Below, piece after piece: positions 1-59,920 of a stretch of DNA of 64,000 nucleotides. The notes under the pieces are model-generated. The model was not told the DNA's origin. It ran no database searches and saw only the letters and a program-made list of their open reading frames with translations. Source of the DNA: an uncultured Bacilli bacterium (lineage in GTDB: Bacteria > Bacillota_I > Bacilli_A > RF39 > UBA660); the NCBI GenBank assembly GCA_944329375.1, contig CALVIB010000003.1, positions 1 to 64,000 on the forward strand, written 5' to 3'. A program made the position numbers and the translations under genes. The stretch's first letter is position 1; the number at the start of each line of letters is the position of its first letter.

Positions 1-1079
1 TCAAATAAAGAAACCTGATGACTAGATGTATCAGATAATTTATCAAGTCTAACTCCTATCAATCTAATTCCATCTTCAGTATTCATTTCATCTAAAATAT
101 GACATGCTGTATTATAAATTTCTTCAGTTAAATTAGTCGCATTAACCAATTTTTTCTGATGACTAAACCGCCTAAAAAACTTATCCTTTAATGTAACCAC
201 AACCACAGATGCATATTTTTTTTGTTTTCTAAGCCTTATAGCCACATTCTCAGATAAAGCTAATAAATAAGGTTCTAATTCTTCCTTAGAAGAAATATTT
301 CTATTCAAAGTAGTCTCATTACCAATACCTTTAGGAACAGATTCCTCACTAACTACAATATCAGACCCTTTACCATTCGCACTATCTATCATATCAAAAG
401 CTTGATTTTTAAAATATTTATATAAAAAATCACTATCTGTATGCGCCAAATCATAAATAGTATTTATATTTAAATTATGTAGTTTAATAGCTGTTTTCTT
501 ACCTATACCAAATAAATCATCAACTAAAAGTGGCCACATTTTCGCCTCCACTTCATCATCAAACAACGTATGCACCTTATAAGGTTTAGAAAAATCAGAA
601 GCCATCTTCGCACATAACTTATTATTACCAATACCTATATTAACCGTAAAACCTAATTTATCATAAATTTCTTTTTTTAACTTATAAGCAAATTCTACTT
701 CGTTGCCATATAAATGTTTAACTGGAGTATAATCTAAAAAACACTCATCAATACTCATTTGTTCAATATCAGGTGAATAACTACGTATTAAATCAAGCAT
801 ACTGTCACTCATTTTTTTATAAAAATTATAATCTGGTGGATAAACCTTTAAATTAGGACATTTCTTCTTAGCTTGAAATAAAGTTTCGGCTGTCACAACC
901 CCTCTTTTTTTAGCAGGCATCGATTTAGCTAATACAATACCATGTCTAGCTTTCTCATCCCCACCAATAACTGCATAAGTTTTTCTAATATCTATTTTAC
1001 TGCCTTTTTTTAAATATAAAACCGCTGTCCATGATAAAAAAGCATTATTGACATCAATATGCATAATAATTTTTTTCAT
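1..1079 (-). CDS. dinB: DNA polymerase IV (Y-family), 3' end cut by window
   Basis: Error-prone Y-family polymerase for translesion synthesis. The protein opens MKKIIMHIDVNNAFLSW, the DinB palm motif with the first catalytic Asp. The second acidic motif SIDECFLDY lies near residue 110, followed by a helix-hairpin-helix region (DDLFGIGKKTAIKL) and a little-finger domain. The last readable residues are QVSLF, the beta-clamp binding motif normally found at or near the end of Pol IV, so only a few residues should be missing. The start has a good site (GAGGTGG, 5 nt spacer). The gene lies behind a LexA-like box, fitting SOS control. Confidence 0.95.
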   Translation of the reverse strand, partial: MKKIIMHIDVNNAFLSWTAVLYLKKGSKIDIRKTYAVIGGDEKARHGIVLAKSMPAKKRGVVTAETLFQAKKKCPNLKVYPPDYNFYKKMSDSMLDLIRSYSPDIEQMSIDECFLDYTPVKHLYGNEVEFAYKLKKEIYDKLGFTVNIGIGNNKLCAKMASDFSKPYKVHTLFDDEVEAKMWPLLVDDLFGIGKKTAIKLHNLNINTIYDLAHTDSDFLYKYFKNQAFDMIDSANGKGSDIVVSEESVPKGIGNETTLNRNISSKEELEPYLLALSENVAIRLRKQKKYASVVVVTLKDKFFRRFSHQKKLVNATNLTEEIYNTACHILDEMNTEDGIRLIGVRLDKLSDTSSHQVSLF

Positions 1080-1098
1080 AGACACCACCTCTATCAAC

Positions 1099-1121
1099 AT
1101 TATACCACGAACAATATTTCG
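1099..1121 (-). promoter_or_regulatory. dinB promoter -10 with LexA/SOS-like box
   Basis: On the minus strand an extended -10 (TGGTATAAT) is immediately preceded by CGAAATATTGTTCG (1108..1121). The Bacillus-type LexA operator is CGAAC-N4-GTTCG, and this site matches 9 of the 10 conserved positions. It sits between -10 and -35, where LexA would block polymerase. The match is seen; repression by LexA is inference from the family. Confidence 0.7.
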
Positions 1122-1229
1122 AAAAAAGAAAAAATAATTAACAAAAAAGTGATGTTTATACCTAAAAAAACTTCTTTTTGACATAATATTTCTTCTATTT
1201 AGCTTAATATTCATAATGTTATCTAAATA

Positions 1230-1341
1230 TAAAAAAGCACCTAACTCATTTACTTCAATGATTTAGGTACGCCAAACAAATTAATCACATCCAACATAGA
1301 AATATTGAATGTTTCTTTTTATTATATGAGATTTCTCCCAT
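1230..1341 (-). ncRNA. Structured small RNA, copy 1 of 3
   Basis: Minus-strand transcript candidate of about 110 nt. It has hairpin P1 (ATGGGA-GAAA-TCTCAT), a linker AATAAAAAGAAA, hairpin P2 (ACATTCAA paired with TTGGATGT, one G-U), and then an intrinsic terminator (stem around ACCTAA/TTAGGT) ending in a U run at 1231-1236. P1, linker and P2 are shared almost base for base with the copy at 7.6 kb and structurally with the copy at 39.7 kb. It is not part of a recognisable gene. It could act as a trans sRNA or as a leader of dinB, but the terminator and the separate dinB promoter favour an independent RNA. Confidence 0.7.
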
Positions 1342-1346
1342 CTATA

Positions 1347-1375
1347 TACATAATAACATTTTAACTTTCAAACAA
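1347..1375 (-). promoter_or_regulatory. Promoter of small RNA copy 1
   Basis: Minus-strand -35 TTGTTT (1370..1375), 17-nt spacer, -10 TATGTA (1347..1352), placing the start just before hairpin P1. An overlapping alternative is TTGAAA-N17-TATATA. It begins inside the tail of the yqeG-like gene. Confidence 0.5.
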
Positions 1376-1379
1376 CGTT

Positions 1380-1925
1380 TTATCCCCTTTTTCCCCTATA
1401 ATATTTTCCATAAGTAAACTTCTTTCTAGGTAAAAAAGAATAAGCAGTAGTTTGAACAAAATCATTAGCCATGGTTTTCATTTTATCTCCACCACGAACA
1501 GCATCCACCATTACCTTATATAGACCTAATCTTTCGGCAAAAATCATATCTAAATAAAATGAATCTCCAACCATCATAGTTGAATTGGGTTTTGCCTCAT
1601 TATCAAACAAACTACTTTTAACTAAATTAAAATCTCCATAAAAAGGTTTTTTAGCCCCAGAAACAAAATTAACACACAATTTCCTAGCTACAGGCTCAAC
1701 CCTTTTATATGAGCCACTAGAATAAAGACCTGGAACAATACCAACACATTTAATATGACTAAAAAGTTCTTCTAACATCCCAGGAATCTTTCTATCATCA
1801 AAAGGTAAAATAGTGCAGTCTACATCAAAAACAGCATATCTAATACCATTTTCGTATAACTTCAAATAATTTATATCATAGACACTTTTTTCATAAGTAT
1901 CTGGTATAATGGACTCTAAATCCAT
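1380..1925 (-). CDS. yqeG: YqeG-type HAD-superfamily phosphatase
   Basis: HAD class IIIA hydrolase of about 181 aa, the usual YqeG length. The nucleophile motif DVDCT lies near residue 34 (DxDxT). A lysine motif is in GAKKPF near 91, and the acidic motif GDSFYLD near 120 completes the Mg-binding site. The N-terminus (PDTYEKSVYDINY) matches the conserved YqeG opening. The in vivo substrate is unknown. It follows miaA by 38 nt and is probably the last gene of the fmt-ruvA-ruvB-queA-miaA run; the terminator of small RNA copy 1 would also end this transcript. Confidence 0.85.
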   Translation of the reverse strand: MDLESIIPDTYEKSVYDINYLKLYENGIRYAVFDVDCTILPFDDRKIPGMLEELFSHIKCVGIVPGLYSSGSYKRVEPVARKLCVNFVSGAKKPFYGDFNLVKSSLFDNEAKPNSTMMVGDSFYLDMIFAERLGLYKVMVDAVRGGDKMKTMANDFVQTTAYSFLPRKKFTYGKYYRGKRG

Positions 1926-1963
1926 AAATTTCTCCTCTTTTCTATGTTTTATAGTATATCATA

Positions 1964-2854
1964 TTATTCAAATATGTCAAAATTACATTTTTTTTTAATA
2001 TACTTTAAAACCTCTTCCTCAGTTTTACTAAAATTATCATAATTAGTTTCAAACCACTTAAGCTTCAGCTGATTACGAAACCAAGTATACTGTCTTTTCG
2101 CATACTTTCTACTCTTACTCTTAATCAAATCTATAGCCTCATCCAAAGTGATTTTACCATCAAAATAATCAAATAATTCTTTAGGTCCAATTGGTGTTAA
2201 AACCGCCTTAGACCTAATACCTAAATCATAAATTTCTTTAGCTTCGTTAACTAACCCTTCAGCCACCATTTTATCAACTCTTTTATTAATCTTATAATAA
2301 AGAATATCTCTATCAGTAGTTAAACCAATAAATATAGTATCATAAAGTAATTTAAAATCTTTCTCTTTTTCACTATATGGTTTACCATTAGCCTTATAAT
2401 AATTAAGTGCACTAATAACTCTAACTCTATTATTTAAATGAATATTAGTGTTAGGGTCAACCTCTAAAAGCATTTTATAAAGTTCATCATTACTAACACC
2501 CTCATATTCATCATTAGCTTTATCCTCAAATTTATAATCATACAAAGCTGCATTAATATAAAGCCCTGTTCCTCCAACTAATATAGGTAATTTACCCCTA
2601 GCTAAAATATCATCAATTATTCTTCTCGCATCTTTTTGATAATCAAAAACTGTATAATCTTCTCTTAAATCTTTCTCATTAAATAAATGATGAACAATAC
2701 CTTCCGTATCTTTAATCTTATTAGTCGCTATATCTAATCCCTTATAAATCTGTGTACTGTCCGCATTTATAATCTCTCCATCTAATTTATGAGCTAAATA
2801 AATACCCAAATCAGATTTTCCAGTTGCGGTAGGCCCCGTAATTACAATAACCAT
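1964..2854 (-). CDS. miaA: tRNA dimethylallyltransferase
   Basis: Transfers a dimethylallyl group from DMAPP to N6 of A37 in tRNAs reading codons that start with U. The P-loop GPTATGKSDL is at residues 7-16, followed by the diagnostic DSTQIYKGLDIATNK motif and GGTGLYINA. The length (296 aa) is normal. It lies 9 nt downstream of queA, so two tRNA modification genes are co-transcribed with the ruvAB pair. Confidence 0.96.
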   Translation of the reverse strand: MVIVITGPTATGKSDLGIYLAHKLDGEIINADSTQIYKGLDIATNKIKDTEGIVHHLFNEKDLREDYTVFDYQKDARRIIDDILARGKLPILVGGTGLYINAALYDYKFEDKANDEYEGVSNDELYKMLLEVDPNTNIHLNNRVRVISALNYYKANGKPYSEKEKDFKLLYDTIFIGLTTDRDILYYKINKRVDKMVAEGLVNEAKEIYDLGIRSKAVLTPIGPKELFDYFDGKITLDEAIDLIKSKSRKYAKRQYTWFRNQLKLKWFETNYDNFSKTEEEVLKYIKKKCNFDIFE

Positions 2855-2863
2855 ATTCTCACC

Positions 2864-3889
2864 TTACTTTATAAGCATACTATCTCCAAAGGAAAAAAAT
2901 CTATATTCTTCCTTAACGGCCTCACTATATGCTCTCATAATATTATCCTTACCAGCTAATGCACTAACAAGCATCACTAAAGTTGACTTAGGTAAATGAA
3001 AATTAGTAATTAAATAATCTATTCCCTTAAACTCATACCCTGGATAAATAAAAATATCAGTCCAACCAGAACATCCTTTAAATGTACCATATAAACTCAT
3101 AATTGTTTCTAAAGTTCTAGTTGAAGTAGTACCAACACTAATTATTTTATGACCATTTTTCCTAGTATTATTAAGTAAATCAGCCACCTCATCAGTCATA
3201 ACATAATATTCACTATGCATCTTATGTTTAGTCACATCTTCCACATTAACTGGTCTAAAAGTTCCAAGTCCAACATGTAAAGTAATATAAGCTATATTAA
3301 TTCCTTTACTCTTAACTTTTTCAAGTAAATCTTTAGTAAAATGTAATCCAGCAGTAGGAGCTGCCGCACTTCCAACATTCTTCGCATAAACAGTTTGATA
3401 TCTATCTTTATCTTTTAATTTCTTATGAATATAAGGTGGTAAAGGCATCTCGCCAAGTTCATCTAAAATCTCATATAAAATACCTTTATACTCTAATTTA
3501 AACTTACGTATTCCTTCATCTAAACACTCTGTGCATCTAGCCTTTAACTTACCATTACCGAATGAAATAACAGTCCCCTCATGTATCCTTTTAGCTGGTC
3601 TTGTTAAACATTCCCACACACTATTACCTTCATCTTTTAAAAGTAAAACCTCTATAACAGCTCCAGTTTCCTCTTTAACCCCATAAAGCCTAGCTGGTAT
3701 AACCTTAGTATCATTTAAAACTAAAGTATCTCCTTTTTCCATATAATCTATTATATCCGTAAAATGTCTATGACTAATTTTGCCAGTTTTCTTATCTAAG
3801 ACTAAAAGACGTGATGAATCACGTTTTTCTAAAGGCGTTTGTGCAATTAACTTTTCAGGTAAATAAAAATCAAAATCATCTGTCTTCAT
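2864..3889 (-). CDS. queA: SAM:tRNA ribosyltransferase-isomerase
   Basis: Builds epoxyqueuosine on preQ1-modified tRNA using the ribosyl part of SAM. It has the family N-terminus ([15 protein letters not shown]), then GAVIEVLLL, and the conserved [12 protein letters not shown] and [19 protein letters not shown] blocks. A GTG three codons upstream falls inside the AGGAGGTGA ribosome site, so the ATG at 3889 is taken as start. The protein is 341 aa, normal for the family. It overlaps the ruvB ribosome-site region closely, consistent with one operon. Confidence 0.96.
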
Positions 3890-3901
3890 TAAAATCACCT
3901 C

Positions 3902-4903
3902 CTAAAATAAACTATCCTGCTTACCATTATTTAAATACCTATAAGCTTTTTCCGTAACCATTCTACCCCTACTTGTTCTTTTAAGAAAACCATTTTGAAG
4001 TAAATAAGGTTCATATACATCTTCAATAGTAGAAGCTTCTTCCCCAATACTAGAAGCAAGTGCATCAATTCCTACGGGACCACCATTAAACTTTTCAATA
4101 ATAGAATTAAGTAAATTGTAATCAGTTGCATCTAAACCAAAAGCATCTACCTTAAGTCTATCTAAAGCTGTTTTAGTAATATCTAAATCAATATTACCAT
4201 CCCCCATAACTAAAGCAAAATCACGAACTCTTTTAAAAAGCCTATTCGCAATTCTAGGTGTTCCTCTACTTCTTTTCGCAAGTTCATAAGCCGCATCCTC
4301 TGCAATTGGCGATTTTAAAACTCTACTAGTTCTTAAAACAATATCTTTAAGTTCATCTTCCGTATAAAAATTAAGTTTAGAAACAATTCCAAATCTGTCA
4401 CGTAAAGGTCCAGTCAAATCGCCAGCTCTTGTAGTCGCTCCAACCAATGTAAAAGGCGGTAAATCAATTGTTATATTTCTACTAGAAGAATCAGAACCAA
4501 CAATAATATCTAATTTAAAATCCTCCATAGCCGAATATAAAATTTCCTCAATAAATCTAGGTATTCTATGAATCTCATCAATAAATAAAACATCGCCAGG
4601 CTCCAAAGTAGAAAGCACCGCTGCTAAATCGCCACTTTTTTCAATTGCTGGCCCACTAGTTGTTTTAATATTAGTTCCCATTTCATTCGCAATAATATAA
4701 GCCATTGTTGTCTTACCTAAACCAGGTGGACCATATAATAGTACATGGTCTAACGCTTCTTTCCTCATTTTTGCCGCTTTCATAAATATATTTAAATTCT
4801 CTTTTAATTCAGCTTGACCAATATACTCATCAATTGAATCAGGTCTAATAGACGTTTCAAAAGTATCCTCCTCTGTTTCATCTCCTGTAACTAACCTTGC
4901 CAT
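3902..4903 (-). CDS. ruvB: Holliday junction branch-migration ATPase RuvB
   Basis: AAA+ motor that drives branch migration with RuvA. It has the opening [11 protein letters not shown], Walker [10 protein letters not shown] near residue 57, Walker [10 protein letters not shown] near 105, sensor and arginine-finger regions ([18 protein letters not shown]), and the C-terminal winged helix ([21 protein letters not shown]). The length of 333 aa is standard. It follows ruvA by 11 nt with a clear AGGAGGTGAT site. Confidence 0.97.
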
Positions 4904-4914
4904 CTAATCACCTC

Positions 4915-5466
4915 CTATTTTAAAAGTAATTTTAAAGCCTCTTTAATTTGTATTTCTATATCAATATTAGAATCAATCTTCTTAACGACTTTATTAATAT
5001 CAGCTTGTTTATAACCTAAACTCTTTAAAGCTTCCACAAGTTCATCACTAACTTGCGTATTAACCTCATCAGATTTAGCTAGTTTTCCTTTTAAATCCAA
5101 AATAATCTGTCTAGCAACCTTATCTCCAATCTTTGGAAACTTCTTTAAATAAAGAATATTTTCTCTATCAATCGCATCGATAATACCTTCAGTTGAACCA
5201 GTCGCTAACATCGGAAGTGCCATCTTACACCCCACACCCTTAACCGAAATTAATTTTAAAAATAAATTTTTTTCATCTAACGACTTAAAACCATATAAAG
5301 TTATTTCATCTTCTCTTACATATTGATACAAATAAACAGTATATTCTTTATCAATTTCAAATGAATAAGGACTAGCTGTATAAATTAAATAACCAATTCC
5401 GTTATTATCTAAAACAATATAATCACTTTCTATATCTTTAATAAATCCTTTGATATAAGCATACAT
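4915..5466 (-). CDS. ruvA: Holliday junction DNA-binding protein RuvA
   Basis: Tetrameric junction-binding partner of RuvB. Domain I starts MYAYIKG and carries YLIYTASPYSF. The helix-hairpin-helix repeats are LISVKGVGCKMAL and LKKFPKIGDKVARQIILDLK, and the small C-terminal domain III (LVEALKSLGYKQADI) contacts RuvB. At 183 aa it is slightly shorter than many homologues but complete. It has its own extended -10 promoter just upstream. Confidence 0.95.
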   Translation of the reverse strand: MYAYIKGFIKDIESDYIVLDNNGIGYLIYTASPYSFEIDKEYTVYLYQYVREDEITLYGFKSLDEKNLFLKLISVKGVGCKMALPMLATGSTEGIIDAIDRENILYLKKFPKIGDKVARQIILDLKGKLAKSDEVNTQVSDELVEALKSLGYKQADINKVVKKIDSNIDIEIQIKEALKLLLK

Positions 5467-5481
5467 AAAACCACCTTCTTA

Positions 5482-5490
5482 ATTATAACA
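5482..5490 (-). promoter_or_regulatory. Extended -10 promoter of ruvA operon
   Basis: The minus strand reads TGTTATAAT (TGn plus TATAAT) about 20 nt before ruvA. No good -35 is visible, as is common with extended -10 elements. No LexA-like box is seen here, unlike at dinB. Confidence 0.5.
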
Positions 5491-5500
5491 CGGAGATAAC

Positions 5501-5532
5501 AAAAATAAAAGCCAACCTAAAATTTACGGTTG
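5501..5532 (-). terminator. Intrinsic terminator after the 102-aa membrane ORF
   Basis: On the minus strand the end of the upstream coding sequence forms CAACC...GGTTGG followed by CTTTTATTTTT. The hairpin overlaps the stop codon of the 102-aa gene and separates it from the ruvA promoter. Confidence 0.6.
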
Positions 5533-5825
5533 ACAAATTTAGAAAACATAAGTCCTAAGAAAATCATATATACAAGGACATATAAAAACATTATAATGTC
5601 ATTAAATACTCCTAAATCAAATGACTTCAAAATAGCTGGTATACTTTCTGGAATAAAATCAAAAAATCCAAAAGCATTATCCTTAATTATATACATTTTC
5701 AAATAAGTAACAATCCTCAAAAATATATCAATCATTACAAAAGCATAAACAAATGCATTAAAATCTTTAAAAAACACAATTATAAGTACAAGTAAAATTA
5801 TTAAAACAATTACTGGTATTGTCAT
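5517..5825 (-). CDS. Small hydrophobic membrane protein, unknown
   Basis: A 102-residue protein that I do not recognise. Three hydrophobic stretches (about 3-20, 24-45 and 75-98) suggest three membrane segments with short loops. Its start overlaps the end of the upstream membrane protein by 4 nt, so the two are translationally coupled and may act together. Its own 3' end is used as the stem of a terminator. Confidence 0.7.
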   Translation of the reverse strand: MTIPVIVLIILLVLIIVFFKDFNAFVYAFVMIDIFLRIVTYLKMYIIKDNAFGFFDFIPESIPAILKSFDLGVFNDIIMFLYVLVYMIFLGLMFSKFVNRKF

Positions 5826-6502
5826 ACTACCCCTCCTACTAATTTATCATAATATTTAGTAAAATCATTTACCTCTCCATAAATATCAATATTTAAAAGA
5901 CCTTCATTATTTAATCCTTTATAATTATAATAACCTGTCAAATCAAATTGATATTTATAAATTCTATTGTCATTTTCATAAACTCTAACAATAATATTAT
6001 ATTGATTAGCTAAACTTAAATTAACAGGTACATCCACATCATATAAATTTAAAAATCTAGAAAGTGGAACCACATACTCTTTAAAATCTCCATTCAAATT
6101 ATAATCTAAATTACTAATCAAATTATTGATAAAATTAAAATCTATCTTTAAAACATTCAAATCAAAATTATTAATCAATGTCGCATTTTGTTCATTAATC
6201 AAATAAACATTTTCCTCATTATAGTAATATCTATTATTTTGATAAAAAAACTCCATTTTACCATCATAACTCTCTCCAAATATAACCAAATTATTATTCT
6301 TATAAGTAAATTTATAATTAGAAATAATCTTTTTTTGAACTGATGCACTACTAGAATTACTTGGTAAACCTCTAACAAAAATAATCAAAACAACTATAAA
6401 TATAAGCCATAAAATAAGTGAAGTAATCGGCTTTAACTTTGGATTAGCCCTCATTTCCTTAAACTTAACATAATAAGGATTTTCTTTTATTTTCTTAAAC
6501 AT
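5822..6502 (-). CDS. Single-pass membrane protein with extracellular domain, unknown
   Basis: A 226-aa protein with a basic, Pro/Lys-rich cytoplasmic N-terminus (about 30 residues), one membrane segment at about 27-45 and a roughly 175-residue external domain rich in Asn and Tyr. No family motif is recognised. It begins one base after the fmt stop codon and overlaps the next membrane gene, so it belongs to the fmt transcript. A lineage-specific envelope protein is the safest description. Confidence 0.7.
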   Translation of the reverse strand: MFKKIKENPYYVKFKEMRANPKLKPITSLILWLIFIVVLIIFVRGLPSNSSSASVQKKIISNYKFTYKNNNLVIFGESYDGKMEFFYQNNRYYYNEENVYLINEQNATLINNFDLNVLKIDFNFINNLISNLDYNLNGDFKEYVVPLSRFLNLYDVDVPVNLSLANQYNIIVRVYENDNRIYKYQFDLTGYYNYKGLNNEGLLNIDIYGEVNDFTKYYDKLVGGVV

Positions 6503-6503
6503 C

Positions 6504-7463
6504 TTACTTTAAAATCTTTCCAACCAATTTTCCATGATAACCATTGATAAAATCTGAAGCTTTCATCTTTTTTTTACCTTCTGGTTGAATCACTGTAAAT
6601 ACGACCTCTCCATTACCACACTTAACTCCAAAACCATCTGGATAAATAGCTGTTACCTCGCCTATCATTGCATTACCATAACATTTATCAGTCCTGTAAC
6701 AACCCCACACTTTCATTATCTTATCATCAAATAAAAAGTAAGCACCTGGCCATGAATTTAACCCTCTAACTTGGTTTATAATCTTTTCCATTGTCTTATT
6801 AAAATCAATCTTCTCATCTTTCCTTGATATATTAAATCCATACGTAGCCTCTGACTCATCTTGTTTAACCCTTTTATTAGTTCCATCTAATATACTAGGT
6901 AGAGTTTCTAATAATAAATCACGACCTAATATAGATAACTTATCATGTAAACTAGAAGCTGTATCTTCATCCTTAATTTCTATTTTTCTCTGACTAATCA
7001 TATCACCAGTATCCATACCTTCAGCCATATACATAATAGTTACTCCAGTTTCACTATATCCATCAATAATTGCATGATGGATAGGAGCGCCACCCCTAAG
7101 CTTTGGTAAAAGTGAAGCATGAACATTAATACAACCTAATTTTGGAATAAGTAGCAATTCCAAAGGTAAAATTTGTCCATATGCACATGTAATAATCAAA
7201 TCAGGCTTAAGTGTATTAATTTCCTGTAAAGCTTCTTTAATTTTATTTGGCTGTAAACATAAAATGTTGTTTTTTATAGCCACCTCTTTAATTGGGGAAA
7301 ACTTAAGCTTACCATGTCTACCAACAGGTTTATCAGGCTGTGTTACAATAGCTCTAACTTTATATTTATCTAAAATTCCTTCTAATACAGGTACACTAAA
7401 TTCAGGAGTTCCCATAAAAATTATTACTGGATTTTTCTTAATCTCTATTTTATCGAAATCCAT
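6504..7463 (-). CDS. fmt: Methionyl-tRNA formyltransferase
   Basis: Formylates initiator Met-tRNA using 10-formyl-THF. Present are IIFMGTPEFSVPVL, VTQPDKPVGRHGKL, the catalytic block CINVHASLLPKLRGGAPIHH, and YMAEGMDTGDM. The C-terminal OB-like domain starts with NQVRGLNSWPGAYF. The length of 319 aa is normal. The start has an AAGGTGATGAT site. It lies downstream of priA, a classical neighbour, but small RNA copy 2 with its terminator is inserted between them. Confidence 0.96.
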   Translation of the reverse strand: MDFDKIEIKKNPVIIFMGTPEFSVPVLEGILDKYKVRAIVTQPDKPVGRHGKLKFSPIKEVAIKNNILCLQPNKIKEALQEINTLKPDLIITCAYGQILPLELLLIPKLGCINVHASLLPKLRGGAPIHHAIIDGYSETGVTIMYMAEGMDTGDMISQRKIEIKDEDTASSLHDKLSILGRDLLLETLPSILDGTNKRVKQDESEATYGFNISRKDEKIDFNKTMEKIINQVRGLNSWPGAYFLFDDKIMKVWGCYRTDKCYGNAMIGEVTAIYPDGFGVKCGNGEVVFTVIQPEGKKKMKASDFINGYHGKLVGKILK

Positions 7464-7559
7464 ATCATCACCTTAACAACAATTTTACCACATTTTGAAA
7501 CATTTAACTAGGTTTTTTATCCATTTTTGTTTTATTAACAATATTAATTATAGCTTTAA

Positions 7560-7671
7560 TATAAAAGAAACCCACCTAACACATCTGTGATTAGGTGGTG
7601 CAATTTTTTTCGGCGCCATCCAACATGGAATTATTGAATGTTCCTTTTTATTATATGAGAAAATTTCATAT
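7560..7671 (-). ncRNA. Structured small RNA, copy 2 of 3
   Basis: Minus-strand RNA candidate of about 110 nt between priA and fmt. It has P1 (ATATGA...TCATAT), the linker AATAAAAAGGAA, and P2 (CATTCAA pairing with TTGGATG around an ATAATTCCATG loop). A strong terminator follows, CCACCTAA...TTAGGTGG, then a U-rich tail. Over P1-linker-P2 it is nearly identical to copy 1, while the terminators use different sequence. Conserved core, changed terminator and retained pairing argue for a functional RNA. Confidence 0.72.
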
Positions 7672-7677
7672 ATATAC

Positions 7678-7706
7678 ATTCTATCATATTTTTAACTTTA
7701 TAGCAA
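7678..7706 (-). promoter_or_regulatory. Promoter of small RNA copy 2
   Basis: Minus-strand -35 TTGCTA (7701..7706), 17-nt spacer, -10 TAGAAT (7678..7683). It sits at the priA stop codon, in the same position relative to P1 as the copy 1 promoter. Confidence 0.55.
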
Positions 7707-7708
7707 TC

Positions 7709-9850
7709 TTATATTCTTAAAGGATTTAAATCAATATCAACATTAATTTTATTTTTATAATGATTTTTAATAAATTCCAAATTATTTAAAATATCCTTAG
7801 TATTTTTAAACTTAATAATAACTTGAACATAATAAATATTATTAACCTTAGGCATATTAGCCGAAGCAGGCCCCAAAATAATATTATTCAAATTACTCTT
7901 TAAATAAGTAACTATTTTAGAAGCTTCATTATAGACCTCATCATAATTTTTACCACTTACCTTAATCAAACAAAGATTATAAAATGGAGGATATTTTAAA
8001 ACCTTTCTTATCTTCATCTCCTCATTATAAAATCCCTCATAATTATTTTCCTTCGCAAACATTATACTATAATGATTTACATTAAAACCTTGAATAATAA
8101 CCTCTCCCGAAAGTTTACCCCTTCCTGCTCTACCAGCAACTTGACTTAAAAGCTCATAAGTTCTCTCACTACTTCTAAAATCAGGAATATTTAGCGTTGC
8201 ATCTCCATTAATTACACAAACTAAAGTAACATTTGGAAAATCTAATCCCTTCGCAATCATCTGAGTTCCAACCAAAACATTATACTTACCATCTTTAAAA
8301 TCAGATAGTATTTTTTTATGTGACCCCTTATTCCTAGTTGTATCCTGATCCATCCGAACAACTCTAACGCCCTCAAATTTTTCTTTGATTAAACTTTCCA
8401 ACCTTTCAGTCCCCATACCTAAAGCATTAATATTTTTACTATGACATATAGGACATTCAGTTAATTTCGGAACCTTATAATCACAGTAATGACATTTCAT
8501 AATATTAGAAGCTTTATGATAAGTTAATGGAATATCACAGTTTGGACACTTATGTGTAAAACCACATTCATGACAAGTAATTACTGTTGAAAATCCTCTT
8601 CTATTAAGTAAAACTAAAACCTGTTCACCTTTAAGTAACCTTTCATTTACCTTATCTTTAAACATTTCAGAAAAAACTCTATTACCTTTTTTAAATTCAT
8701 CTTTCATATCAACTAAATAAACCTTAGGTAAAGTTTTATTAACCCTATTTTTCATATTTAAAAGTTCATATATTCCCATTTTTGCTCTAGTATAACTTTC
8801 AATACTAGGAGTCGCACTACCTAAAATAACTGGAATATCATATCTTTTACCTCTTCTTAAAGCAATATCTATGGCATTATACTTAGGAACATTTTCTTGT
8901 TTATATGTATCAGAATGCTCCTCATCAATAATGATTATTCCTAAATTAGTAAAAGGTGCGAAAATAGCACTCCTAGCTCCTATAACAATAGAAACTTCCT
9001 TCCTTTCAATCTTTCTCCATTCATCATATTTTTCCCCATCACTCAAAGCACTGTGTAAAATAGCAATTAAATTACCAAATTGCTTTTTAAAAATACTTAC
9101 AACTTGAGGAGTTAAACTAATTTCAGGAACAAGTAAAATAGCCTCCTTACCCTGTTTTAAAACCTTTTCAATTAACTTAATATAAACAAGTGTTTTCCCA
9201 CTTCCAGTAACCCCATGTAATAAATAAGGTTTAAACTTATCAAACCTCACACTCTCTAAAACATTTTTCTGTTCGTCTGTTAAAACATAATCTTGCCTTT
9301 CTATTTTTACATCATCTAAAAGCCTATAAACTTCCTTATCAAACTCCTCTAAATAACCGTTTTTAATAAGTGTCTTACAAACCGAAACTGATATTTTATT
9401 AACCTCGCTTTTTAAAGCATCATTATGATTTTTTACATAATCAAAAACCTCTTGTTGCTTAGAAGTAAACTTACCTTCTTTTATAATCCTTAAACACTTA
9501 ACAAATTTCTTATTAATATTTGTTTTTTTTCTTGCCTTCAAAGCACTAGGTAACATTGTCTGATAAGCTTTAGTTAGTGGAGATAATGTTTTCTTACTAA
9601 TATATTTTCCAAGTTCTAACATTTCTTCATTTAAAACAGGCCTATCATCGACTAATTTAATAATATCTTTAACCTCATAATCAAGTTTAACTTCATCATA
9701 TATTTTAACAATAAAGCCTTCAATACTTCGCACTCCAAAAGGTACTAAAACCCTCATACCAACCAAAGCATTCATATCATTAGGTATATGATAAGTAAAT
9801 GTTTTTTCAGTTGTTTTGGAAACAACCTCCACTAATACATCAGCAAGCAA
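7709..9850 (-). CDS. priA: Primosomal replication-restart helicase PriA
   Basis: 3'-5' SF2 helicase that reloads the replisome at stalled forks. The N-terminal DNA-binding domain opens ADVLVEVVSKTTEKTFTY. Walker A is LLHGVTGSGKTLVY near residue 215, the DEEH box is IIIDEEHSDTYKQ, and GSATPSIES follows. Eight zinc-binding cysteines run from CHECGFTHKCPNCD to CPICHSKN, then GTQMIAKGLDFPNV and QVAGRAGRG. The length of 713 aa is normal. The start is a TTG 9 nt after GAGG; no in-frame ATG fits that site. Confidence 0.96.
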   Translation of the reverse strand: MLADVLVEVVSKTTEKTFTYHIPNDMNALVGMRVLVPFGVRSIEGFIVKIYDEVKLDYEVKDIIKLVDDRPVLNEEMLELGKYISKKTLSPLTKAYQTMLPSALKARKKTNINKKFVKCLRIIKEGKFTSKQQEVFDYVKNHNDALKSEVNKISVSVCKTLIKNGYLEEFDKEVYRLLDDVKIERQDYVLTDEQKNVLESVRFDKFKPYLLHGVTGSGKTLVYIKLIEKVLKQGKEAILLVPEISLTPQVVSIFKKQFGNLIAILHSALSDGEKYDEWRKIERKEVSIVIGARSAIFAPFTNLGIIIIDEEHSDTYKQENVPKYNAIDIALRRGKRYDIPVILGSATPSIESYTRAKMGIYELLNMKNRVNKTLPKVYLVDMKDEFKKGNRVFSEMFKDKVNERLLKGEQVLVLLNRRGFSTVITCHECGFTHKCPNCDIPLTYHKASNIMKCHYCDYKVPKLTECPICHSKNINALGMGTERLESLIKEKFEGVRVVRMDQDTTRNKGSHKKILSDFKDGKYNVLVGTQMIAKGLDFPNVTLVCVINGDATLNIPDFRSSERTYELLSQVAGRAGRGKLSGEVIIQGFNVNHYSIMFAKENNYEGFYNEEMKIRKVLKYPPFYNLCLIKVSGKNYDEVYNEASKIVTYLKSNLNNIILGPASANMPKVNNIYYVQVIIKFKNTKDILNNLEFIKNHYKNKINVDIDLNPLRI

Positions 9851-39513: not shown

Positions 39514-39610
39514 ACTATTCACCTCATTAAATTTCTTACTACTAAAATTACACCAACAATATTATACTACATCATCAAATTTAAACAAAATAAATTATGG
39601 CAATCGCAAT

Positions 39611-39739
39611 AGAAAAATGACACTCATTCGCTAGAATAAGTGTCAATGAATAAATGCCCATAAGGCAATTTATTAGGTAGATATTCAACTTGACAAAACT
39701 GAATGCTCCCTTTTTTATTTTATGCAAGTTTTTCACATA
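39611..39739 (-). ncRNA. Structured small RNA, copy 3 of 3 (divergent)
   Basis: Minus-strand RNA of about 130 nt downstream of ssrA. P1 TATGTG...TGCATA, linker AATAAAAAAGGGAG, P2 ATTCAG...TTGAAT, a small extra hairpin (TGCC/GGCA), then a terminator (TGACACT...AGTGTCA, U run at 39612-39617). Its sequence has drifted from copies 1 and 2, but the order and pairing are kept with compensating changes. The stretch from 39523 to 39811 holds no other feature that I can see. Confidence 0.6.
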
Positions 39740-39742
39740 CTA

Positions 39743-39770
39743 ATAATAGCATGATAATGAACTTTTTCAA
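39743..39770 (-). promoter_or_regulatory. Promoter of small RNA copy 3
   Basis: Minus-strand TTGAAA (39765..39770), 16-nt spacer, TATTAT (39743..39748), positioned just before P1 as in the other two copies. Confidence 0.5.
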
Positions 39771-39811: not shown

Positions 39812-40163
39812 TGGTGGAGCCGAGGAGAATTGAACTCCTGTCCAAAAACACTTCCAAATAAATATCTACAAGCTTAGTTAGTTAAAAAATTTCCTAGTAA
39901 AGATTAGTAACTAACAACTACTCTACCAGTAAGCCTATAAAATTCATCATTACCTCTAGGCAAAATAATGATATATCTCTCTAAAAGCGAACCCTTAAAA
40001 TTCTTCGAGAGCTAAAGAATTAAAAGAGTGTACCTTGCCAACCTTAGGCAAATGCTGGTACGTAATTATTTCTGTTTCCAGTTATATTTAAGTTTAGACT
40101 TAACGTGTCACTACGGCTTGCAATCTATCCATCCATGCTCCTGTCGAAACCAAAAACGGCCCC
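39812..40163 (-). ncRNA. ssrA: tmRNA (transfer-messenger RNA)
   Basis: Rescues stalled ribosomes with SmpB. The 5' end GGGGCCG pairs with CGGCTCC before an encoded CCA; the T-arm region TTCAATTCTCC and the 5' TTTGGTTTCGACAGGA block are typical. The total is 352 nt. The tag frame reads GGA AAC AGA AAT AAT TAC GTA CCA GCA TTT GCC TAA (40044..40079), giving (A)GNRNNYVPAFA, a degradation tag ending in Ala but without the usual ALAA. It sits next to smpB and rnr, the full trans-translation set. Confidence 0.96.
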
Positions 40164-57774: not shown

Positions 57775-58824
57775 TTAATCACCTGTAACATCACAGAAAA
57801 TTTCACCATCTGCGCCAACAGAAACTTCTCCTTCGCCAATAGAATTATTAATAAGGGTAATAATAAAGCTAAGTAACACTGGTAATAATAAAAGTATAAT
57901 AACAACAATAATTCTTGTGAACAAATGCTTTATTGCATCTCTAAATTTCTCATCATCAGAGCCGGTAATAGCTTTTATAAAGCTTATAGCTGTCATAACA
58001 ACTAACAATATTATTCCACCAACACTTATAATCCAAAAGGCAGTTTGTAACATTTCCTGTAACGTTGGACTAATTATACTACAAGGGTCCTCTAAAGAAT
58101 CAACTTCATATCCTTCAGCATTTGCCCAATCAATAATTTTTTGAGTATCAACTAAAATCCCATCAGAATTAACAGCATCTTCAACATCATCAAACTGTTG
58201 TTCAAGGGAATCTTGTAAAATAGAATCAGTTTGCTCACAAGCTTTACCTTTTAAATCTAAATCTTTTTGACCTTGATAAATACAACCAACAGATTGCCCA
58301 TAAATCATACCAGAACCATTTCCCGCATAATCAGCACTATAATTATTACCTGAACCACTTACCTTAATAGGTGGACAATTATAACCATTTTTCTTAAAAT
58401 AGCCTGCAAAATTAATAGGCGATGCATTAGTATCTTCTCCATATACTTCATCAGTAAAATCTAATGGCGCTCTATCAAAAATACCATTTACATTAAAACC
58501 TATTTGCATAGATGATGTACCATTATTTTTACATCCTCCAGTTTGGGCGGTAAATACATTACAATTTTTAACCGTTTTATCAGATTCACTACATCTATAA
58601 GCAACTTGAACAATAGCTGTTTGATAATTATAATCACAATTAGTAATAGAAGAATCGCCACAAAATTGATATTGACATATGACACCATAAGTACAACCAC
58701 CATTATTTGATGAACCACCATCATCAGTTGCTGTATTTGGCACCGCACTAACACTACTTATATTAATGGATAAAATCCCAAGCGCTAAAATAAATGTTAA
58801 AAATATTTTCAATTTTGCATTCAT
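57775..58824 (-). CDS. VirB2-like protein with large Cys-rich ectodomain, paralogue A
   Basis: 349 aa. A signal peptide (about 1-28, ending SVSA) and a Cys-rich external domain (about 30-245) are followed by two membrane segments (FWIISVGGIILLVVMTAISF and LFTRIIVVIILLLLPVLL) that share the spacing and DDEKFRDA loop of the small VirB2-like proteins nearby. The final 118 codons are nearly identical to those of paralogue B; the ectodomains are diverged. It may be a tip or surface subunit of the same filament or channel. Confidence 0.75.
   Translation of the reverse strand: MNAKLKIFLTFILALGILSINISSVSAVPNTATDDGGSSNNGGCTYGVICQYQFCGDSSITNCDYNYQTAIVQVAYRCSESDKTVKNCNVFTAQTGGCKNNGTSSMQIGFNVNGIFDRAPLDFTDEVYGEDTNASPINFAGYFKKNGYNCPPIKVSGSGNNYSADYAGNGSGMIYGQSVGCIYQGQKDLDLKGKACEQTDSILQDSLEQQFDDVEDAVNSDGILVDTQKIIDWANAEGYEVDSLEDPCSIISPTLQEMLQTAFWIISVGGIILLVVMTAISFIKAITGSDDEKFRDAIKHLFTRIIVVIILLLLPVLLSFIITLINNSIGEGEVSVGADGEIFCDVTGD
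57788..58140. repeat. 353-bp direct repeat, copy 1
   Basis: Matches 58923..59275 at an offset of 1135 bp with six differences by eye, the first roughly 245 bp being identical. It covers the C-terminal membrane part of paralogue A and stops where the ectodomains diverge. Confidence 0.95.
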
Positions 58825-58912: not shown

Positions 58913-59920
58913 TTACTCGGTGACATCACAGAAAATTTCACCATCTGCGCCAACAGAAACTTCTCCTTCGCCAATAGAATTATTAATAAGGGTAATAATA
59001 AAGCTAAGTAACACTGGTAATAATAAAAGTATAATAACAACAATAATTCTTGTGAACAAATGCTTTATTGCATCTCTAAATTTCTCATCATCAGAGCCGG
59101 TAATAGCTTTTATAAAGCTTATAGCTGTCATAACAACTAACAATATTATTCCACCAACACTTATAATCCAAAACGCAGTTTGTAATATTTCCTGTAACGT
59201 TGGGCCAATTATACTACAAGGGTCCCCTAAAGAATCAACTTCATATCCTTCAGCTTTTGCCCAATCAATAATTTTATTTATATCGACTGTTATACCATCA
59301 TTGTCTTTATCATCATTCTTCCCTGTTTCTGAATCAGCATATGCATGCCCTGCATCTTCAGTAGCTTGTTCTTGCATTTCTCCTACATTTATAACCTTAT
59401 TTTGAGGAACACATCCTGGATTTGAAAGAGGATCAGTTGACCATGATGTACGACGACCGCTAAAACCCACTCCAAATTGTTTAAACTTAACTTTAATCTC
59501 ATCATTGCCATAATAGTATAAAGTTGGACAAGCAAACTTATTATTACTAGTAAAATAAGACTTAAAATCATTAATTTTAGAAGGTAAAATATCACTTTCA
59601 TCACTAATTGGAAGATCTTCACCAGGATTTCCACCTGTTTCAAAAAAACTATTAGCGCTCATATCTTGTTTACTAGCCACTGGATAAACTGTAAATTTAG
59701 AGCACTCACTAAATGTTTTGGAAATATCACTGCACTGAAAAGCAACATAAAGATATCCACCACCCATAAGATATCCACCACCTACTGATTCACGTAAACC
59801 ATCCAAACTATATTTACACTCAATACCATAATCACAGGTAGTAACTGCTTTTGCACTATTTACATTAAAAAACAAAAAAGAAAACACAAATAAACAAACA
59901 AGTTTAAAAATTTTTTTCAT
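58913..59920 (-). CDS. VirB2-like protein with large Cys-rich ectodomain, paralogue B
   Basis: 335 aa with the same design as paralogue A: signal peptide (ending SAKA), external domain beginning TTCDYGIECKYSLDGL (compare CTYGVICQYQ in A), a Gly-rich GGGYLMGGGYLYVAF stretch, and the shared two-segment C-terminus. The ATG at 59920 is used since an upstream GTG is part of AGGTGAGG. Only the ectodomain differs appreciably, which suggests that surface recognition varies on a fixed membrane base. Confidence 0.75.
   Translation of the reverse strand: MKKIFKLVCLFVFSFLFFNVNSAKAVTTCDYGIECKYSLDGLRESVGGGYLMGGGYLYVAFQCSDISKTFSECSKFTVYPVASKQDMSANSFFETGGNPGEDLPISDESDILPSKINDFKSYFTSNNKFACPTLYYYGNDEIKVKFKQFGVGFSGRRTSWSTDPLSNPGCVPQNKVINVGEMQEQATEDAGHAYADSETGKNDDKDNDGITVDINKIIDWAKAEGYEVDSLGDPCSIIGPTLQEILQTAFWIISVGGIILLVVMTAISFIKAITGSDDEKFRDAIKHLFTRIIVVIILLLLPVLLSFIITLINNSIGEGEVSVGADGEIFCDVTE
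58923..59275. repeat. 353-bp direct repeat, copy 2
   Basis: Partner of 57788..58140. Some of the six differences change residues (ISPTLQEM in A against IGPTLQEI in B; WANAEG against WAKAEG). Confidence 0.95.

Follow-up and report, generated by a model that had tools for sequence, protein, structure and literature searches.

A probable multicopy family of type I toxin-antitoxin modules in gut Bacilli with small genomes, and candidate solitary antitoxin RNAs

The par module (fst/RNA II) of plasmid pAD1, from the Fst/Ldr family, is a type I toxin-antitoxin system in which a toxin mRNA and a short antitoxin RNA are convergent and the toxin is a hydrophobic peptide of ~30 aa (PMC7472228). The Shine-Dalgarno (SD) sequence lies in a leader hairpin, complementary stretches are found near both 5' ends and chromosomal copies occur in Bacillota; the toxins carry a signature of a conserved W, a P/D/S/TXXXG motif and a charged C-terminus (PMC7472228). 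We analyzed 64,000 nt from an uncultured Bacilli bacterium (assembly GCA_944329375.1, contig CALVIB010000003.1, positions 1 to 64,000; hereafter the window), which contain three copies of a small RNA. Judging from sequence comparisons, this RNA is very probably the antitoxin (RNA II) in a type I toxin-antitoxin family that appears to be undescribed so far and occurs in many copies in gut Bacilli with small genomes; the window copies would be solitary antitoxins.

All three copies lie on the minus strand (1230-1375, about 7560-7706 and 39613-39770), an orientation not given in the earlier note that had reported them. Each consists, in this order, of a promoter, a hairpin P1, an A-rich linker (AUAAUAAAAAGRAA), a hairpin P2 and a strong terminator (Table 1). 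The P1-linker-P2 region of copies 1 and 2 had been called nearly identical, and indeed they share a 44-nt block (1288-1331 and 7617-7660) at 93% identity; within the window, a 23-nt core pattern is found twice versus 0.02 expected occurrences. The terminators are, as claimed, unrelated in sequence yet equally strong, with folds of -15.4, -15.8 and -19.4 kcal/mol in copies 1, 2 and 3 (z -4.5, -3.9 and -5.4). The two hairpins were confirmed and are conserved in the family. They fold better than shuffled sequences in copy 1 (z -3.9) and copy 2 (z -2.1), but P1 and P2 of copy 3 taken alone do not (z -0.6). Promoter elements are present at all three copies: copies 2 and 3 have a -35 box and an extended -10 box at 17 and 16 nt, and copy 1 has kept the extended -10 box with its -35 box (TTGTTT) at a non-optimal spacing of 14 nt. 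For this reason the copy 1 promoter may be weaker than the family consensus (TTG..-17-TGnTATAAT); an alternative promoter is TTGAAA-17-TATATA. A simple pattern scan for promoters and terminators found promoters at chance level and missed the terminators of the copies, since their loops and internal mismatches exceed the scan pattern.

BLAST searches of related genomes returned many further RNA copies, some of them in tandem module arrays spaced by about 355 bp. We aligned 49 RNA copies and built a covariance model from them (R1). It finds the three window copies. The small-RNA family proposed in the earlier note is real, with all elements present; the match at 39675-39747 is presumably copy 3 of that note. 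The covariance search for more copies, which had been suggested there, yielded 12 in the genome of the window (1.2 Mb) and matches in 33 of the 36 genomes from the genus. Within the order (RF39 in GTDB), R1 matched 193 of 288 genomes and 75 of 102 sampled genera. Almost none were found elsewhere in the class: a class-wide draw of genomes gave matches in 32 genomes of the same taxonomic family and in one outside it (G483, where the sequence is a short contig end). A pattern scan of named genomes returned 54 stretches, nearly all from gut or rumen Bacilli assemblies, including Candidatus Coprosoma intestinipullorum and Candidatus Caccenecus avistercoris. At the sensitivity used, phage, plasmid and IMG/VR sequences had no match to copy 1, to an intact module or to the core pattern. 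The earlier note had recognized no known riboswitch or small RNA, and Rfam (fstAT and every other family) gave no relevant match at gathering or permissive thresholds; at E<=10, positions 1000-8000 of the window gave chance matches only.

The R1 structure is backed by covariation. In the alignment, 97% of cells are paired, and 49 cells show double changes versus 14.3 in shuffled alignments (0/500). Changes on both sides were seen in nine of 13 RNA II pairs, versus 5.9 in shuffles (3/500), and the compensatory changes in relatives, the absence of which would have spoken against the family according to the earlier note, are present in all seven pairs of P2. When partner columns were slid by 1-3 positions, pairing fell to 28-51%. 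The variation in P2 comprises 43 G-U cells and at most 4 A-C cells. Selection on P2 therefore acts on the RNA II strand, and a terminator stem of the opposite strand is not its primary role.

The opposite strand of the RNA carries a small convergent gene, first seen in the tandem arrays of the window's genome. We searched for short open reading frames (ORFs) that are preceded by an SD sequence matching over at least 5 nt, encode a hydrophobic stretch and have their stop codon 32-76 nt from the RNA core. Such an ORF faces the RNA in 100 of the 130 copies with full flank, as compared to a mean of 0.15 (maximum 1) in dinucleotide shuffles and 0 on the same strand. The encoded peptides are hydrophobic, 20-31 aa long and fall into three main types, A (M.KKDFLI..), B (MTKRE..) and C (MK.K.F..). 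They are under purifying selection, with ratios of nonsynonymous to synonymous substitution (dN/dS) of 0.21 for type A (600 pairs) and 0.43 for type B (100 pairs). The terminators of the RNA match the type of the putative toxin. Compared with PHROGs, the peptides gave only matches of unknown function with weak E-values, and type A had no match in the PDB. Some antitoxin copies (L191, L194) face another short, MEL..LKNKD-like peptide, perhaps a fourth toxin type.

Each intact module has two promoters. The presumed toxin-mRNA leader begins directly after a TATAAT/TATACT -10 box with AGGAACAUUUAAUAGUUGGGUGGAGCC..., followed by a hairpin that includes the SD sequence. Double changes were found in 46 cells of the leader versus 14.6 in shuffles (0/500), and the number of further pair types was not above shuffles. 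The accessibility of the SD core is 0.30, lower than the 0.39 obtained when the upstream sequence is shuffled (p=1.7e-4). An independent covariance model built from this leader (R2) matched eight places in the window's genome at E<=0.01, all eight facing an RNA II copy. Across 22 genomes of the genus, 59 of 68 R2 matches below 1e-6 have a convergent R1 match at 109-148 nt; of the nine unpaired ones, at least four lie at contig ends, and some are in genomes where R1 is known only among the matches listed. The first leader hairpin is a same-sense sister of the antitoxin P2, as weak R1 matches fall on this hairpin and weak R2 matches on P2. Both RNAs start with these sister hairpins (GGAA-7nt-loop-7nt-NNN-CC), the arms of which are complementary crosswise, completely so in 78 of 81 modules with assignable arms. 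The summed arm match is 1131 for cognate pairs versus 1097.7 +- 3.2 for permuted pairs (0/10000).

Together, RNA II and the convergent gene for what is predicted to be a single-span membrane peptide would form an intact module of ~350 bp. RNA II would be complementary to the 3' portion of the toxin mRNA in the terminator region, a 3' overlap that is given by the layout. Should the toxin mRNA end at the U-tract that is antisense to the A-rich linker, the overlap would probably span P2 as well. This U-tract is present on the toxin strand of all modules examined, with a search motif that favours it, and a linker A-run that doubles as a U-tract on the other strand would explain the conservation of the linker. 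After the main hairpin, at least 5 U in 8 positions are found in 92% on the RNA II strand and in 3% on the toxin strand. The toxin-mRNA leader would keep the SD sequence in its second hairpin, and pairing with RNA II may prevent translation, make the toxin mRNA accessible to RNase, or both. As expected of a type I antitoxin, the RNA is predicted to be complementary to the toxin mRNA: modeled duplexes of cognate pairs range from -139 to -179 kcal/mol, assuming that the toxin mRNA runs through antisense P2. The evidence for pairing concerns P2 and the 3' region of the RNA. In type A modules, for example in L052, one more small hairpin (CCAA..UUGG) is repeatedly found on the stretch from P2 to the terminator.

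Several observations weigh against this interpretation. The peptides match no known toxin family and are found in none of Pfam, NCBIfam or PADLOC, and 30 of the 130 modules have no peptide that passes the strict criteria, although near-misses occur in some of them. On the toxin strand, the main hairpin is not followed by a U-tract, and the hairpin formed by antisense P2 is weak, averaging -4.6 kcal/mol; the 3' end of the toxin mRNA is one that we infer. Kinship among the sequences inflates the covariation, arm-pairing and SD statistics. Finally, transcription of copy 1 is uncertain, its -35 spacing being off consensus.

The window copies appear to have lost their toxin genes. In the window's genome, nine of the 12 copies have an intact peptide gene opposite them (R2 matches at eight; the one on C22 was identified by its ORF only and has a weak SD sequence), and the toxin-less three are exactly those of the window. 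None of these three faces a peptide that satisfies the search described above, and R2 finds no toxin-mRNA leader on the plus strand there; gene remnants of types B, A and C are left (Table 1). In relatives, the yqeG-dinB site (that of copy 1) holds an intact type B module (G002) or a type A module (G030), the priA-fmt site (that of copy 2) holds three tandem modules (G031) or none (an empty site, G018), and an intact type C module lies beside ssrA in G013. Modules have therefore been gained, replaced and lost at fixed sites. Between module and dinB in G030 (L011, about 1880-2400) there is a structured-looking insert of several hundred bases, which may be the terminal part of a group II intron.

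The solitary copies could be decaying remnants or RNAs that still silence the same-type toxin mRNAs of the nine intact modules. As their own toxin gene is lost, action in trans is conceivable. Copy 2 is predicted to form duplexes of -123 to -135 kcal/mol with same-type toxin mRNAs (-49 to -71 with other types) and copy 3 one of -162 (-43 to -58); copy 1 reaches -96 at best with its type (-47 to -77). Such pairing, far above that with other types, makes a guard role possible, and all three copies have retained the terminator, most of P2 and promoter elements despite the missing toxin. However, loss of the toxin first is expected even without selection for the RNA, since losing the antitoxin first would be harmful. 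Moreover, the outer P2 pair of copy 3 is broken and P1 of this copy is weak, and copy 1 has lost the GG/CC closing pairs in addition to its off-spaced -35 box. We thus regard functional trans-acting (anti-addiction) guards kept by selection as rather unlikely compared to decaying remnants. Equally tentative is a network across the genome: a single antitoxin scaffold would serve at least three toxin types and spread through tandem duplication and replacement at fixed sites, and leftover solitary RNAs would guard in trans against same-type toxins, whether resident or incoming.

The earlier note had suggested a trans-acting RNA with the A/G-rich linker as its exposed part. As a main function this found no support: intact relatives face a convergent toxin-like gene, and the RNA is therefore best read as a cis-antisense antitoxin. 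A family of trans-acting regulatory RNAs with ordinary mRNA targets and incidental peptides would fit the separate promoters and terminators, the several copies, their solitary state in the window and the strongly conserved linker. It is nevertheless very improbable, given the conserved coding gene at a fixed distance in 100/130 relatives, the co-occurrence of the toxin-leader model with RNA II, the match of terminators and toxin types and the U-tract opposite the linker A-run. Just as improbable is the idea of a mobile repeat, in which the hairpins would serve as ends or spacers and no toxin-antitoxin pair would exist. The multiple copies, the regular tandem arrays and the empty and filled sites would agree with it, but not the purifying selection on the peptide, the two promoters per module or the wobble pairs that reveal selection on the RNA II strand. 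Least credible of all is control in cis of dinB, fmt and the gene that follows ssrA, with the RNA as a leader or riboswitch-like attenuator. Each of these genes has a copy upstream in the same orientation, but past the terminator dinB has a TATAAT promoter of its own and a LexA-like box, copies elsewhere stand in front of unrelated genes or form tandem arrays, the structure is tied to the convergent gene and Rfam contains no matching riboswitch.

Table 1. Positions of the putative antitoxin RNAs, their promoters and the toxin gene remnants in the window
Feature	Position	Strand	Details	Basis
Putative solitary antitoxin RNA, copy 1 (type B)	1230..1343	-		R1 (1281-1351, E=1.4e-13), folds, 44-nt repeat
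Parts of copy 1	P1 1326-1341; A-rich linker 1312-1325; P2 1287-1312; terminator stem 1237-1270; U-tract 1230-1236	-		
Predicted promoter, copy 1	1350..1375	-	Extended -10 TGTTATTAT at 1350-1358; -35-like TTGTTT at 1370-1375	Sequence, family consensus
Remnant of type B toxin gene	1149..1228	+	Start codon and SD lost, in-frame TGA 1179-1181, no leader	
Putative solitary antitoxin RNA, copy 2 (type A)	7560..7672	-		R1 (7610-7679, E=6.3e-12), folds
Parts of copy 2	P1 7652-7672; P2 7617-7640; terminator stem 7570-7601; U-tract 7560-7569	-		
Predicted promoter, copy 2	7678..7706	-	TTGCTA-17-TAGAAT, extended -10	
Remnant of type A toxin gene	7505..7564	+	C-terminal half only, no start codon or SD, in-frame stop upstream, no R2 leader	
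Putative solitary antitoxin RNA, copy 3 (type C)	39613..39745	-	Downstream of ssrA	R1 (39675-39747, E=5.7e-5), terminator z -5.4
Parts of copy 3	P2 arms 39699-39705 and 39682-39688; terminator stem 39618-39645; U-tract 39613-39617	-		
Predicted promoter, copy 3	39743..39770	-	TTGAAA-16-TATTAT, extended -10	Sequence
Remnant of type C toxin gene	39587..39620	+	Last few codons (..MAIAIEK*), in-frame stop upstream	Sequence

Some neighboring features of the window were also recorded. The LexA/SOS-like box before dinB (CGAAATATTGTTCG, 1098-1121, minus strand) has similar counterparts before dinB in G002 and G030; the number of LexA-like boxes in the window is not above chance. The transfer-messenger RNA (39812-40163, minus strand) encodes the tag peptide GNRNNYVPAFA and adjoins smpB. 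A 300-nt direct repeat with 98% identity (57785-58084 and 58920-59219) lies inside two neighboring paralogous genes, whose products of 349 and 339 aa have sub-threshold matches to T4SS_pilin.

The modules would add a large unannotated type I toxin-antitoxin family to the uncultured gut bacteria of one order. In the open-licence literature, we found no paper joining the name of this order with toxin-antitoxin terms. Peptides of 20-31 aa and antitoxin RNAs that have no entry in Pfam, NCBIfam and Rfam escape routine annotation. With intact, tandem, empty and toxin-less sites side by side, the fate of an antitoxin after loss of its toxin becomes testable across hundreds of genomes.

Compared with the described systems, the family resembles par in being a small convergent module with a short hydrophobic toxin candidate, an SD sequence in a leader hairpin, predicted complementarity near both 5' ends and chromosomal copies in Bacillota. 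Unlike Fst, peptide types A-C lack the conserved W, PXXXG and the charged C-terminus, and the Fst profiles in Pfam or NCBIfam did not match the peptides at E<=10. Since, in addition, the RNA has no fstAT match and the hairpin is not a bidirectional terminator (a par-like one is ruled out by the toxin-strand U-tracts in only 3%), we did not file the family under par. RNA II is also longer, about 115-130 nt versus about 40 in par, and the 5' complementarity would be provided by same-sense sister hairpins with crosswise arms instead of the direct repeats of par. The Bacillus subtilis modules txpA/RatA, bsrG/SR4 and bsrE/SR5 have a multi-hairpin antitoxin in common with the new family (PMC6562991), whereas their toxin profiles do not match the new peptides; sister 5' hairpins and a multicopy set of three types are not described for them in the part of that source used here. 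The toxins of Clostridioides difficile CD2517.1-RCd8 and related modules have 50-53 aa and represent a different peptide type. By analogy, the new family may nevertheless work like par (Fst/RNA II) and the 3'-overlapping modules of B. subtilis (PMC7472228; PMC6562991; PMC6563280).
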